Source of the DNA: Sulfurospirillum barnesii SES-3
GTDB taxonomy: Bacteria > Campylobacterota > Campylobacteria > Campylobacterales > Sulfurospirillaceae
Assembly (NCBI RefSeq): GCF_000265295.1
Contig: NC_018002.1
Coordinates: forward strand, 1,302,001 to 1,366,000
Length of the DNA: 64,000 nt
Direction of reading: 5' to 3'
A program made the position numbers and the translations under genes. Shown here in pieces: positions 5,081 through 12,323 of this stretch; the first letter of the stretch is position 1; each line of letters opens with the position of its first letter. Below the pieces are notes generated by a model that saw only the letters and a program-made list of their open reading frames with translations, was not told the origin of the DNA and did no database searches.

Positions 5081-6305
5081 AACCTTTGGGTGTCGCACCA
5101 ACATTTACGACACACAAGTGATGATAGAAAATCTAAAAGATTTTGAAATCACAGAACATGAAGCAGATGCAGACATTGTCGTAGTAAACTCCTGTACGGT
5201 TACCAATGGTGCCGATACGGGGGTACGCAGTTACATTAACCATGCCTCAAAGCTGGGAAAAAAAGTAATTTTAGCAGGCTGTGGAGCAATGAGCAAAGGG
5301 GAGAGTCTTTTTTCTCAGCAAAAGGTTTTTGGCGTACTAGGGCACTCTGAAAAACGCTCCATCAATACCTTGCTTCACAACGCCACTCCTTTTTTTGAGA
5401 TAGGAGATTTAACCTCACTCGATGAGACCATTGTGCATGAATACACGGGCAAAACCAAAGCCTTTATCAAAATTCAAGAGGGGTGCAATTTTCGCTGTTC
5501 GTACTGCATTATTCCTTATGTAAGAGGCAATGCCCGCAGTCAGGATGAGCAAAAAATCATTGAGCAGGTGGAAAAACTAGCGCTCAATGGCTATGGTGAG
5601 TTTGTTTTAACAGGAACGAACATAGGCAGTTATGGCAAAGATAAAAGCAGTAGCTTAGGAAAACTCGTCCAACGCTTAGGTGCGATTCGAGGGGTAAGAC
5701 GTATCCGTTTAGGAAGTATTGAGCCTGTACAAATTGATGAGAGTTTTAGAGAAATTTTAAATGAGCCGTGGTTAGAGCGTCATTTACATGTAGCGCTTCA
5801 GCACACCTCTGAAGCAATGCTAAAACTGATGCGACGACGCAACAGTGTCACACAAGATTTGGAGCTTTTTAGCGAACTGAGTGAAAAAGGGTTTGCTCTA
5901 GGAACGGACTTTATTACGGGGCATCCAGGGGAGAGTGAGGCTATTTGGGAAGAGGCGTATGCGATGCTTGAAAAATTCCCACTTACGCACATTCACGCCT
6001 TTACCTATTCCAAACGAGATGGTACGCCCTCAAGTACGATGAAGCCAGAAATCAAAGGCGATGTTGCTAAAGCAAGGCATCAACACATAGAAACACTCAT
6101 TGCGCAAAAAAACCGTGCGTTTCGTGAGAAAAACAGCACAACACCTTTAGACGTTTTAGTCGAAGAGTCCAAAGAAAACCATTTTGTTGGCTACGACCAA
6201 TTTTTTAACAAAGTCATCATTCAAAGCCAGCGTGACCTGCTCAAAGAGTGGGTGAGACTTGAGCAGTATGACATTATGCAGGAGGCAAACTATGCACATT
6301 TTTAA
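5061..6305 (+). CDS. mtaB: tRNA t6A37 methylthiotransferase (MtaB-like radical SAM enzyme)
   Basis: MtaB converts t6A to ms2t6A at position 37 of tRNAs reading ANN codons. The 414-residue protein has the three family parts: an N-terminal UPF0004 domain with cysteines in [17 protein letters not shown] and AGCGAM; a radical SAM core with the cluster motif CNFRCSYC near residue 145; and a C-terminal TRAM-like region that is short here. The variant GCRTN with VNSCTVT fits MtaB rather than MiaB. The ATG overlaps the mscS-family stop by 20 bases. The end of the gene overlaps the start of the FtsH-like gene. Identification is confident at the family level, and the MtaB subtype is likely. Confidence 0.9.
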   Translation: MKKVFFKTFGCRTNIYDTQVMIENLKDFEITEHEADADIVVVNSCTVTNGADTGVRSYINHASKLGKKVILAGCGAMSKGESLFSQQKVFGVLGHSEKRSINTLLHNATPFFEIGDLTSLDETIVHEYTGKTKAFIKIQEGCNFRCSYCIIPYVRGNARSQDEQKIIEQVEKLALNGYGEFVLTGTNIGSYGKDKSSSLGKLVQRLGAIRGVRRIRLGSIEPVQIDESFREILNEPWLERHLHVALQHTSEAMLKLMRRRNSVTQDLELFSELSEKGFALGTDFITGHPGESEAIWEEAYAMLEKFPLTHIHAFTYSKRDGTPSSTMKPEIKGDVAKARHQHIETLIAQKNRAFREKNSTTPLDVLVEESKENHFVGYDQFFNKVIIQSQRDLLKEWVRLEQYDIMQEANYAHF

Positions 6306-7953
6306 ATCCCAAAAACTCATGCTCTCGCTTATGGCATTGAGCGTTTTTGTTATTTTGCTTTTATTTGGGTATGTGCGTGGTGGTTCAAACAATATTGATC
6401 TACCAACCTACCATGCGCTTTTAGAGAGTGGGGCGATTAAAAAAGCCAAAGTCGAAGAGAATGAGCTTATTCTTTACAGTAACAATGAGCAGTATGTTAT
6501 TATCAAAGATGGTATTGACATTGCAGAATTACTGAAAAAAGTGCCCATTGAAGTGCATAAAAGCAATCCTATCCTTGAAGATTTAATTTTAGTAGGGGTT
6601 ATGGGAAGCATTTTGTTTATTTTGTTGCTGGTTGCTCGTAAAAAAAGAGCCGAAGATGTGCAAAAAGAGCAAGAAGCGAACCAAAAAGCCCTCGCCAGTT
6701 ATGATCCTTTTATGAGCAGTGTGATTCGACCTGTGCGTGCTCAGGTGAGTTTTAAGGATGTTGCTGGCATTCAAGATGTCAAAGAAGAGCTTGAGGAGGT
6801 GGTGGATTTTCTTAAAAACCCCGCTAAATACAAACGCTACGGTATTAGACTGCCAAAAGGTGTCTTACTCGTAGGCCCTCCAGGTGTAGGTAAAACCATG
6901 ATAGCCAAAGCCGTTGCAGGGGAGGCGAGTGTGCCTTTTTTTTACCAAAGTGGGGCAACCTTTGTGCAAATTTACGTGGGCATGGGAGCAAAAAGGGTTA
7001 AAGAGCTTTTTTCGCAAGCCAAAGCACACGCACCTTCGATTATTTTCATTGATGAAATTGATGCGGTAGGACGAGCACGAGGGGGCGCACGTAACGATGA
7101 AAGAGAAGCCACTCTCAATCAACTTTTAACCGAAATGGATGGCTTTGAGGACAGCAGTGGCGTCATTGTGATTGCCGCGACCAATAAAATAGATATTATT
7201 GATGAAGCGCTGCTTCGTTCAGGGCGTTTTGATAGACGTATTTTCATCTCATTGCCCGATAAAAATGACCGCTTGGAAATTTTAAAAACCTACCTAAACA
7301 ACAAACCTTACGAGGTCAATATCGATGAATTAGCCACCATGAGCGTGGGCTTTAGCGGTGCGGCATTGGCAACCTTTGTGAATGAGGCAGCGATTAACGC
7401 TTTGCGCCGTAATGCTGAAATTATCGAGCTTCAAGACTTTATTGCCGTACGCCAAAAGGTTTTAATGGGCAAGAAAAAGGTGCTCAGTTTTTCAGAGGAA
7501 GAGAAGAAAATTCAAGCCTATTATCAAGCGGCAAAGGCGCTGTGTGCCTATTGGTTTGAGATAGAGTTTGACAAAATCAGCATTGTGAATGACCGCATTA
7601 AAGATATGGACAGAGAAATTGAATCAAAAACCCAAATGCAAAGTAAGATTAAAGTCTATCTTGCTGGCATGGTAGCCATGAAACTCAAATACAATGAAAA
7701 ATTTACCAATGCCACAGAAGACATTAACCGTGCAACTCAAATTGCCAAAGAGATGGTAGAACTCTACGCTATGGGTGAAAAATTGCTCCCTTATGAGAGC
7801 GATATTTTGCAGATTTTGGAAAATGCGCACAGCGAATTGGAACATTTTTTGGAAAATATGAACACACCGCTGGAAAAAATTGCCCATGAGTTGTGTGAAC
7901 ATGAGAGCATTTCACGCACACGCCTTAAAGAAATTATTGATGATGTTCTTTAG
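6292..7953 (+). CDS. FtsH-like AAA protein that has lost the HEXXH zinc motif
   Basis: The protein has about 553 residues. I chose ATG 6292 because GGAGG precedes it by a good distance; a longer frame to 6259 has no such site. Domains in order are an N-terminal membrane anchor (about 9-25), a short periplasmic part, a second membrane segment (about 95-113), and an AAA module. The AAA module has Walker A GPPGVGKT (about 195), Walker B IIFIDEID, the FtsH pore motif region [10 protein letters not shown] and the SRH segment RSGRFDRRI. Where FtsH has the metalloprotease motif HEAGH, this protein reads YQAAK (in [17 protein letters not shown]). Both zinc-binding histidines and the catalytic glutamate are therefore gone, although the later EDINRAT segment with the usual third ligand position remains. 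It is likely a pseudoprotease: an ATP-driven membrane unfoldase or scaffold. The same gene position in H. pylori also holds an FtsH homologue. Confidence 0.85.
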
Positions 7954-10059: not shown

Positions 10060-10513
10060 GCTTTTTAGGTTTTAAAAACTTTACATGTAAAGTTAAAAGT
10101 TAAGCTCTCCAGTTTTTTCTGAATGACCTCTTTTTTCCGAAATATATATCCATATACAAAAAACGCATTAGTTACTAAAAGTTACATTAATATGCTAAAA
10201 TTTTAAAGTTTTTTTACCTCTAACTATATTGCCTATAGTTTTCATGCTGTTCATCTTCCTTTATCTTCTTTCCCTTAATATCATAAAAATATTCTCTAAA
10301 TCTTATAATTTTTATCTTTAAATTTTAAATTTTATTTAAGAGGAAAGAGACTAGTATGAACCTAATCCTTAAAAAACATATTAATTTAACTGATTAAATC
10401 TAGTATTAGGAGGTGAAGAAATTTTATATGGTTATAGCTCAAATGTTCAGTTGGTGGTCAGTTTAAAAAGTCATTTTTTAACTCAGTAGTGAAAATCACA
10501 AAAGGAGATTAAC
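10060..10513. other. AT-rich leader region with two micro-ORFs, no recognised gene
   Basis: This gene-poor stretch precedes a radical SAM pair. It begins with a copy of the iterated palindrome at 10081-10090, within the longer inverted repeat AACTTTACATGTAAAGTT. Two tiny frames can be seen. ATG 10356 gives 13 residues (MNLILKKHINLTD) after a GAGGAAAGAG ribosome site. ATG 10428 gives 12 residues (MVIAQMFSWWSV), 14 bases after AGGAGGTG, an excellent anti-16S match but at long spacing. Either could be a leader or modified peptide; neither is supported by homology. The rest is poly-A/T-rich and probably holds the promoter. Confidence 0.4.
10428..10466 (+). CDS. 12-codon micro-ORF rich in aromatics (speculative peptide)
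   Basis: ATG GTT ATA ... TCA GTT TAA encodes MVIAQMFSWWSV. It lies 47 bases upstream of the 158-residue gene that precedes a radical SAM/SPASM maturase. The AGGAGGTG upstream is one of the strongest ribosome-binding sequences in the window, which is why the frame is listed, although the 14-base spacing is longer than usual. Peptides with Trp/Phe-rich ends are substrates of some radical SAM cyclophane-forming enzymes, but here this is only inference from position. Confidence 0.2.
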   Translation: MVIAQMFSWWSV

Positions 10514-10990
10514 ATGCCACAGATTAAAAATCATCTTGATACAGCAGCGGAAAAAACAGGTGTAAAATTTATAGGTTTAGAAAGAAAGAGTGGAGTTATC
10601 AAAAATGGTATGGGAAGTACCGCACAAGATATTCTAGGATGGAATATCACCATACGTGATGATGGGGGTACTTGCTATGAATATTATATGGCACGACCAC
10701 CTCTTATTGGTATGACACAGCCAGTGCCTATCAAATGTCCTCTTGGTATTATTGCATTTGATGATTACAAAATTGATATTGAAGAAGCGGTCAAGATTTT
10801 TCATACTCAAAATGGCGGTGATCGGTTTAGTGATGTCGTTTTATCGTGGCCTCTAACTCACCCAGCTGCACCAGAACCTTATTGGTATTTTAGAACTAAT
10901 TTAGGAAACAATGTTGTTATCGGTGCTAATTCTGGACAAATAAAAGGACATTCTCCAATAGTTGTTTTGTATATGGCTCAGCATAAATAG
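10514..10990 (+). CDS. Unknown 158-residue protein, PepSY-like C-terminal half
   Basis: ATG 10514 follows AAAGGAG at ideal spacing. There is no signal peptide or membrane segment. The first half has a glycine-rich region (GLERKSGVIKNGMGSTAQDILGWNITIRDDGGTCYEYYMARPP). The second half (IDIEEAVKIFHTQNGGDRFSDVVLSWPL ... YWYFRTNLGNNVVIGANSGQIKG) has the helix-then-strand layout and terminal Gly-x-x-Ile ending of PepSY-type domains; this is a by-eye resemblance. Two cysteines are present (about 56 and 77). It is the first gene of a pair with the radical SAM enzyme at 11058, separated by a hairpin. It could be that enzyme's substrate or carrier, or an unrelated protein. Confidence 0.6.
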   Translation: MPQIKNHLDTAAEKTGVKFIGLERKSGVIKNGMGSTAQDILGWNITIRDDGGTCYEYYMARPPLIGMTQPVPIKCPLGIIAFDDYKIDIEEAVKIFHTQNGGDRFSDVVLSWPLTHPAAPEPYWYFRTNLGNNVVIGANSGQIKGHSPIVVLYMAQHK

Positions 10991-10999
10991 TCAGTGAAA

Positions 11000-11028
11000 G
11001 AGGGGTCTCCTCATTGAGGATTTCCCTC
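11000..11028 (+). terminator. Intercistronic hairpin between the 158-residue gene and the radical SAM gene
   Basis: GAGGG (11000-11004) pairs with CCCTC (11024-11028), and inside it TCCTC (11008-11012) pairs with GAGGA (11016-11020) around an ATT loop, with a 3x3 internal loop between the two stems. No strong U-tract follows, so it may be a leaky terminator or a processing/stability element that sets a higher level of the first gene than of the enzyme. Confidence 0.45.
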
Positions 11029-11057
11029 GTCTGTAAATTTATAAAAGGTAAGTAATC

Positions 11058-12089
11058 ATGAGTAAAAATGACTATATCCCTGAAAATTGTGTTTGGGAAC
11101 TCACTCTAAAATGCAATATGAATTGCCTTCATTGTGGTTCACGAGCAGGAAAAAAACGTAAAAATGAATTATCAAATAAAGAAGCATTAGCTCTAGCAGA
11201 TGAACTCATAAACTTAGGATGCAAATATGTTACATTAATAGGTGGTGAAGTCTTTTTATACAATGGTTGGGAAAAAATCGCTCGCAGATTCACCGAAAAT
11301 GGCGTTACCGTAAATATTATAACAAATGGATATCATTTTGGTGATAAGCAAGTAAAAGAAGTAACGTATGCAGGGCTATCAAATATTGCACTTTCTATTG
11401 ATGGAATGAAAGAAAAACACAATACTATTAGAAATAATTCAAAATCTTTTGACTCTTTAATGAAAACTATTAATCGTTTAAACCAAGAAAATATAAAAAT
11501 AGGCGTTAATACAACGCTCATTGATTCTAATGTTTCAGATTTGGAGGAACTCTATACGTTTCTTCTTGATAATAATATAAAAATATGGCAACTGCAGCTT
11601 GCTAATCCAATGGGAAATTTTAGTGACAGAAAAGAACAAATGATATCTATCAATAATATTAAAAAAGTAACATCATTTATTAAACAAAAACGAGATGAAG
11701 GAAAACTAAAAATTTATACCGGTGACAATATCGGGTACTATGATGAAAATGAAAAATTTATAAGAGGAGAACCTGGAAATATAAATTATTGGTCAGGATG
11801 TCATGCGGGTTTATCTGTTGTAGGCATAGATAGCGTAGGTAATGTCAAAGGATGTGAGTCTCTTTATGATGACATATTTATAGAAGGTAACATTAGAGAA
11901 GAATCTTTTAGTGATATATGGTTTAAAGATAATAATTTTGCATATAATAGAAAGTTTGATAAGTCTCTTTTAAGCGGTAAGTGTAAAGATTGTGATATGG
12001 GAGTATATTGCCGTGCTGGATGTAGAGGAGCTTGCTTTTTTACAAACGGAAACTTTTTTGAAAATGCTTATTGCATTTACAATAAATAA
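11058..12089 (+). CDS. Radical SAM/SPASM-domain enzyme, probable peptide or protein maturase
   Basis: The 343-residue protein has the radical SAM cluster motif CNMNCLHC (about 19-26) and the GGE-type segment LIGGEVFLY. The C-terminus is cysteine-rich: SGCHAGLSVVGIDSVGNVKGC, then CKDCDMGVYCRAGC, which fits the SPASM spacing C-x2-C-x5-C-x3-C, and a final Cys near the end. SPASM proteins carry extra 4Fe-4S clusters and usually modify ribosomal peptides or protein side chains (anSME, PqqE, cyclophane- and thioether-forming enzymes). No N-terminal RRE-like domain is apparent. Codon use is strongly AT-biased and there is no TTACATGTAA copy from 10091 to 12210, both consistent with transfer. The substrate is unknown; the 158-residue upstream gene or a micro-ORF is the nearest candidate. 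Confidence 0.85.
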   Translation: MSKNDYIPENCVWELTLKCNMNCLHCGSRAGKKRKNELSNKEALALADELINLGCKYVTLIGGEVFLYNGWEKIARRFTENGVTVNIITNGYHFGDKQVKEVTYAGLSNIALSIDGMKEKHNTIRNNSKSFDSLMKTINRLNQENIKIGVNTTLIDSNVSDLEELYTFLLDNNIKIWQLQLANPMGNFSDRKEQMISINNIKKVTSFIKQKRDEGKLKIYTGDNIGYYDENEKFIRGEPGNINYWSGCHAGLSVVGIDSVGNVKGCESLYDDIFIEGNIREESFSDIWFKDNNFAYNRKFDKSLLSGKCKDCDMGVYCRAGCRGACFFTNGNFFENAYCIYNK

Positions 12090-12323
12090 CCCACATTGCT
12101 AGTTGGTAAAATAGCCTAAAAGTTGCTTGCAGACTCCATCAAAAGCCGTGAAAGGCGAAATTATAGAGCGAGATGTTATAACAATTTGAAGTATAGAATG
12201 CAACCTTGTTTTACATGTAAAGATATTATTCCTCTTTACTTAGCATCAAAAAAGTCAGGAAAAATGAGATACAAACAATAATAGGGAACTAAGCTTTTAA
12301 CTTTTACACACCCTTTCATATTA

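Follow-up and report, generated by a model that had tools for sequence, protein, structure and literature searches.

The closest described systems to the locus analysed here are the PlpXY splicease and its spliceotides from Pleurocapsa (IPR026482), in which a radical SAM/SPASM enzyme is encoded beside precursor genes and the target is a Leu-Tyr site in a short segment. The documented site rule of PlpX is X-Tyr-Gly (PMC10373908, PMC10533398), the PlpX tag is PIRPLYGLPI (PMC10533398), and the chemistry is reported to be leader-independent and to work leader-free on proteins, at their C-termini and on C-terminal tags (PMC10533398). Spliceotides are reported to be protease inhibitors (PMC11117315, PMC10373908).

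A stretch of 64,000 nucleotides from Sulfurospirillum barnesii SES-3 (the window) contains two genes that, judged by sequence, may constitute a leaderless, RRE-less variant of this known kind of system. We consider it rather probable that the enzyme, an RRE-free relative of the splicease, modifies the C-terminal tail of its 158-aa partner protein at L152-Y153, likely by tyramine excision, and that the pair is a laterally acquired two-gene cassette with an inhibitor as a plausible product. Gene linkage, apparent kinship to the splicease, and a Tyr-bearing tail found only where the enzyme is adjacent argue for this reading. An earlier note on this DNA had overlooked both the splicease (PlpX) neighbourhood of the enzyme and the likely modification site in the C-terminal tail of the 158-aa protein. 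The locus has the following features:

10104..12323, no strand assigned: strain-specific interval with the cassette, a GrpB-like gene on one side and a pentapeptide-repeat gene on the other
10428-10466, plus strand: 12-codon micro-ORF MVIAQMFSWWSV, named in the earlier note and judged here to lie outside the system
10514-10990, plus strand: open reading frame of the 158-aa partner protein, open, with ribosome-binding site AAAGGAG; homologues stand upstream of the enzyme gene in Chlorobium ferrooxidans (L015) and a second Chlorobia genome (L107)
10940..10987, plus strand: C-terminal tail IKGHSPIVVLYMAQHK of the 158-aa protein, with candidate modification site L152-Y153
10970-10972, plus strand: Tyr codon of the candidate site, Y153
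11000..11028, plus strand: intergenic hairpin (RNA folds), a possible partial terminator or mRNA end
11058-12089, plus strand: open reading frame of the radical SAM/SPASM enzyme, 343 aa, open, with PF04055 and PF13186

Both reading frames are intact and the pair recurs, adjacent, in L015 and L107, which bears out the two-gene unit of the earlier note; there is no third gene in the cassette. The AT-richness it described is evident as well (32% GC in the cassette versus 39% in the window), and, as it had remarked, no exporter, protease or RRE adjoins the gene pair. A hairpin lies between the partner and enzyme genes in all three loci, differing in sequence but occupying the same intergenic place (window fold z -2.3; L015 z -6.0; L107 -21 kcal/mol), and would fit partial termination that leaves more transcript of the precursor than of the enzyme. 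Elsewhere in the window, positions 6259-7953 (plus strand) encode an FtsH-like AAA+/M41 protein; its zinc motif HEAGH appears to be replaced, which suggests a proteolytically dead FtsH paralogue.

The enzyme contains Radical_SAM (PF04055, E 1.6e-24) and SPASM (PF13186, E 7e-7) domains, and Pfam together with alignment places it in the SPASM radical SAM superfamily, defined by CX3CX2C plus a seven-cysteine SPASM domain. The SAM-cluster ligands are C19, C23 and C26, and all seven SPASM cysteines are present (C248, C266, C309-X2-C312-X5-C318-X3-C322 and C339), including the CX2CX5CX3C ligands already recognized from the sequence; the cluster-ligand cysteines do not vary across the six enzymes aligned. 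The top NCBIfam match was TIGR04103 (nif11-class peptide radical SAM maturase 3) at 257 bits, below its cut-off of 725, followed by TIGR03913 (GDL-motif peptide maturase) at 245 bits, below its cut-off of 591.75. Both families represent the lineage of PlpX, the splicease that excises tyramine; TIGR04103 is presumably equivalent to IPR026482. No DUF1843 gene, the substrate type of TIGR03913, is present in the cassette, neither cassette protein has a PqqD/RRE match, and the enzyme is without the C-terminal extension found in nif11_3/GDL enzymes.

A maximum-likelihood tree joins the window enzyme to the two Chlorobia enzymes in one clade (100/100). This clade is nested among enzymes of methanogens and Zixibacteria (98/93), with Clostridia adjacent, and stands away from MftC and NirJ. 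Neighbours in this tree, which was built from a set without PlpX itself, include loci with LYG precursors; overall support for the splicease-like side of the root is weak (57/90). A best fit to a non-peptide SPASM family, which the earlier note had named as the outcome that would speak against it, did not emerge, since peptide-maturase families score best. An enzyme of cofactor or heme biosynthesis (NirJ/AhbD/MftC-like) with an unrelated neighbour gene, as NCBIfam scores of roughly 130-147 bits against the families of heme b synthase, MftC and NirJ might suggest, is therefore very improbable and already largely refuted: the peptide-maturase scores are ~100 bits above those of any heme or cofactor SPASM family, the tree separates the enzyme from MftC and NirJ, and the two genes stay paired in different phyla. 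Since the site is Tyr-Met, an RRE is lacking and both curated cut-offs are failed, the short, RRE-free enzyme is best described as apparently splicease-like, and the locus should not be called a spliceotide system; with scores so far below both cut-offs, the chemistry could differ.

The alignment of the enzyme was used to scan 84,980 species genomes, revealing one match at 73% identity, in C. ferrooxidans, where a 165-aa homologue of the partner (61% identical) is encoded directly upstream of the enzyme gene. A search of 98 genomes of the class of C. ferrooxidans added a second pair (G452, locus L107), with a partner of 158 aa (65% identical) and an enzyme (72% identical) that starts 57 nt after it, so that the linked pairs of the two Chlorobia genomes span 61-65% identity to the window for the partner and 72-73% for the enzyme. 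Purifying selection acts on both, with dN/dS of 0.13-0.22 for the partner gene and, between L015 and L107, 0.17 for the enzyme gene. By sequence comparison, the co-occurrence that the earlier note proposed to look for is thus found in L015 and L107, and the two genes are genuinely linked as a pair conserved across phyla. Just upstream of the partner gene, both Chlorobia loci also share a 60-codon frame (L015 5183-5365, L107 4184-4366) ending TLHYLTKGKRW(A/V)YKIRAP; it was considered as a third gene and rejected as probably not coding (dN/dS 0.87), and is perhaps a conserved non-coding leader.

Within the genus, the 23 remaining genomes have neither gene, and neither was found in the remainder of a 397-genome sample of the phylum, in which four distant enzyme matches (~30% identical) group with NirJ. 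The nearest species retain the flanking genes and lack the cassette, and in L131 the flanking genes are almost directly joined without it. The cassette is probably a recent arrival in this genome, with lateral transfer as the simplest reading. No relatives of the partner were detected in a single-sequence scan of genome contigs or in the plasmids, phages and viral contigs scanned.

The 158-aa protein, described at the outset as of unknown family, gave no match in Pfam, NCBIfam, PADLOC or PDB by itself, and its family as a whole gave none in Pfam or PDB; Pfam and NCBIfam show no nif11 or nitrile-hydratase-type leader on it. A structure predicted from two sequences had a pLDDT of 39 and was not used for fold search. 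Alignment divides the protein into a ~140-aa domain (residues 1-142), which ends at GAN(S/C)GQ, and a short C-terminal tail, and profile searches locate the domain in Methanothrix-group and Methanosarcina-group archaea. Most of the Methanothrix-type copies look secreted, and the one that was scanned has DUF333 ahead of the domain; four copies from Methanosarcinales stand alone, with lengths of about 148 aa.

A Tyr-bearing tail extends past the domain in all three enzyme-linked copies. The window tail is VVLYMAQHK (the protein ends VLYMAQHK), that of L107 is TVLYMAHSK, and that of C. ferrooxidans is LLYGTPPVPLYQAPSK / RLLYGTPPVPLYQAPSK, with the site LYG. Conversely, the unlinked archaeal copies stop 4-12 residues after the domain without a Tyr in 10 cases out of 10. 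The difference (3/3 linked versus 0/10 unlinked) gives p 0.0035 by Fisher's exact test, for an association that is phylogenetically non-independent because the three tailed proteins are one clade. Six of seven checked archaeal genomes with unlinked, tail-less copies lack the enzyme (E<1e-40); the seventh (G407) encodes it on a separate contig, next to a small precursor of a different kind. An internal YYMARPP was disfavoured as the site, the motif being common to unlinked archaeal domains. The idea that a duplicated AT (2 bp) had changed LYG to LYM in the window was likewise rejected, as the second Chlorobia genome has the VLYMA tail too.

The domain occurs alone in archaea that lack the enzyme and so has its own function. 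Its solitary occurrence there, and the lack of any other RRE, would suit a recognition or chaperone partner (RRE-like) whose substrate is elsewhere, such as the FSWWSV micro-ORF or some other peptide encoded in the genome. We regard such a role as quite improbable: the Tyr-bearing tail is present exactly in the linked copies, the 158-aa gene occupies the position of the precursor gene in relatives, and the micro-ORF is a poor candidate. The 12-codon frame ending FSWWSV does exist, with AGGAGG 14 nt from its ATG, but the precursor role given to it in the earlier note does not stand, since no counterpart is found upstream of the partner gene in C. ferrooxidans and the frame is ordinary by base rate, the window holding 18 Shine-Dalgarno-preceded micro-ORFs versus about 10 expected in shuffles. 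What does survive of the small modified-peptide locus proposed there is a peptide- or protein-modifying SPASM locus of unusual type.

Small proteins in the precursor position of related enzymes are varied and have tyrosine motifs in common. In Methanosarcina spelaei (L017) a 52-aa upstream peptide ends in PVPLYGIVRPLYGVPLK, and in Nostoc (L011) a nif11 precursor with an LYG site ends in SIALYGLPPELF; in sequence, both ends resemble the PlpX tag. Y[AGM][GA]P, counted in all three sense frames within 800 nt upstream of the enzyme, occurred at 56/76 loci, as opposed to 1/76 on the antisense strand of the same stretch and 3/79 and 2/79 downstream; the motif was defined after inspection of the loci, making the count descriptive, and the strand and side controls make a chance origin of the enrichment implausible. 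At one corresponding position, DUF1843 (GDL) paralogues of Azospirillum carry MLYGGAM, KPYGVAI and PMYMATM, and a deltaproteobacterial precursor (L091) carries PYMAPP and LYMGPP. The residue after Tyr thus appears to vary naturally, with Tyr-Met-Ala standing where relatives have Tyr-Gly, which points to Tyr-Met as a functional variant of the site.

The Nostoc system (TIGR04103) gives the highest NCBIfam score across the catalytic and SPASM regions and has an LYG site in its precursor, whereas the enzymes are 34% identical, the window enzyme is shorter by the C-terminal extension, and it reaches 257 of 725 bits. The Azospirillum GDL system (TIGR03913; 35% identity) has one paralogue with PMYMA and others with LYG/PYG, but uses three small paralogous substrates with the site near the N-terminus, and a larger enzyme. 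In two such loci (L008 4561-4755, L117 1055-1249), the PMYMA paralogue stands beside sister copies with LYG/PYG. Clostridial loci (L068, L077) resemble the window in enzyme length, superclade and the order precursor then enzyme, and differ in having many repeats in long low-complexity precursors and enzymes that are about 40-46% identical. In rumen Clostridia (L068, L077, L042 and others), a long, low-complexity precursor with as many as ten VYAGP repeats immediately precedes a splicease-like enzyme, and several of these precursors end in a zinc-ribbon-like CxxCG segment. Small proteins upstream of methanogen and Zixibacteria enzymes (L016 5167-5445, L018 1016-1351, L020 5606-5926) have a WQxRMxKD-type motif, in some cases duplicated, together with KYG/RYG or YCPA sites, and belong to no Pfam family.

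The sites of relatives also bear on the chemistry. Modification of the tail by another radical SAM reaction (crosslinking, epimerisation, Tyr side-chain or C-terminal modification) would accord with an enzyme under the curated cut-offs of splicease-linked families and in a distinct clade, and with the replacement of Tyr-Gly by Tyr-Met in 2/3 tails. However, the Methanosarcina, Nostoc and GDL relatives, on several sides of the tree, have canonical-looking YG sites, and Tyr is common to all motifs, so that we view a different tail chemistry as unlikely. Under the preferred reading, splicease-type modification, the radical SAM/SPASM enzyme would act on the Leu-Tyr of the flexible C-terminal tail and most likely excise a tyramine unit from Y153 (-135.07 Da, C8H9NO), which would turn L152 into an alpha-keto-beta-amino (ketoamide) residue. 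The remainder of the 158-aa protein would serve as a carrier domain presenting the electrophilic tail; such a leaderless carrier is plausible because PlpX is reported to be leader-independent and competent at C-termini (PMC10533398). We infer that the tail is the substrate, that its chemistry is tyramine excision and that the armed tail plausibly inhibits a protease: the two genes together probably yield a chemically armed protein, perhaps an inhibitor of proteases.

Against splicease-type modification stand the Tyr-Met in place of Tyr-Gly (the window tail reads L-Y-M where the PlpX rule has X-Tyr-Gly), the absence of a PlpY-like RRE, and the absence of a leader of the nif11/NHLP kind. The locus further departs from PlpXY in having no epimerase and in placing the site, Tyr-Met-Ala, on a 140-aa carrier domain with tail-less homologues elsewhere.

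Protease inhibition, the least certain step, is favoured because spliceotides are reported to inhibit proteases and because a chagasin-type domain is found at the same position on the carrier. In one archaeon (G960, L151 4233-5003), a single case, the partner domain is fused at the tail position to a chagasin-type inhibitor (I42; PF09394, E 1.3e-13); the protein shares the carrier domain and a C-terminal module with the window protein, differing in that the module is an I42 inhibitor domain, not a Tyr tail. No enzyme was seen near this fusion within the 9.5 kb fetched. Tentatively, and with more doubt than conviction, these proteins may form a modular inhibitor family in which one carrier domain ends bare, with a chagasin-type domain, or with a splicease-made Leu-Tyr-Met ketoamide warhead. 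The active site would then be installed by an enzyme on a protein and not on a peptide natural product, a possibility we hold just as loosely.

The title of Scott et al. 2022 (Chem) reportedly covers both peptides and proteins, and that work may already include the clade of the window enzyme. If our reading is true, backbone splicing would reach beyond leader-directed peptides and take in a two-gene system that has neither leader nor RRE, whose natural carrier is a protein and whose site is Tyr-Met. The small enzyme would be a candidate for installing ketoamides in proteins, and the domain family would offer a clean natural contrast, tail and enzyme versus neither, in which the purpose of the residue could be tested.
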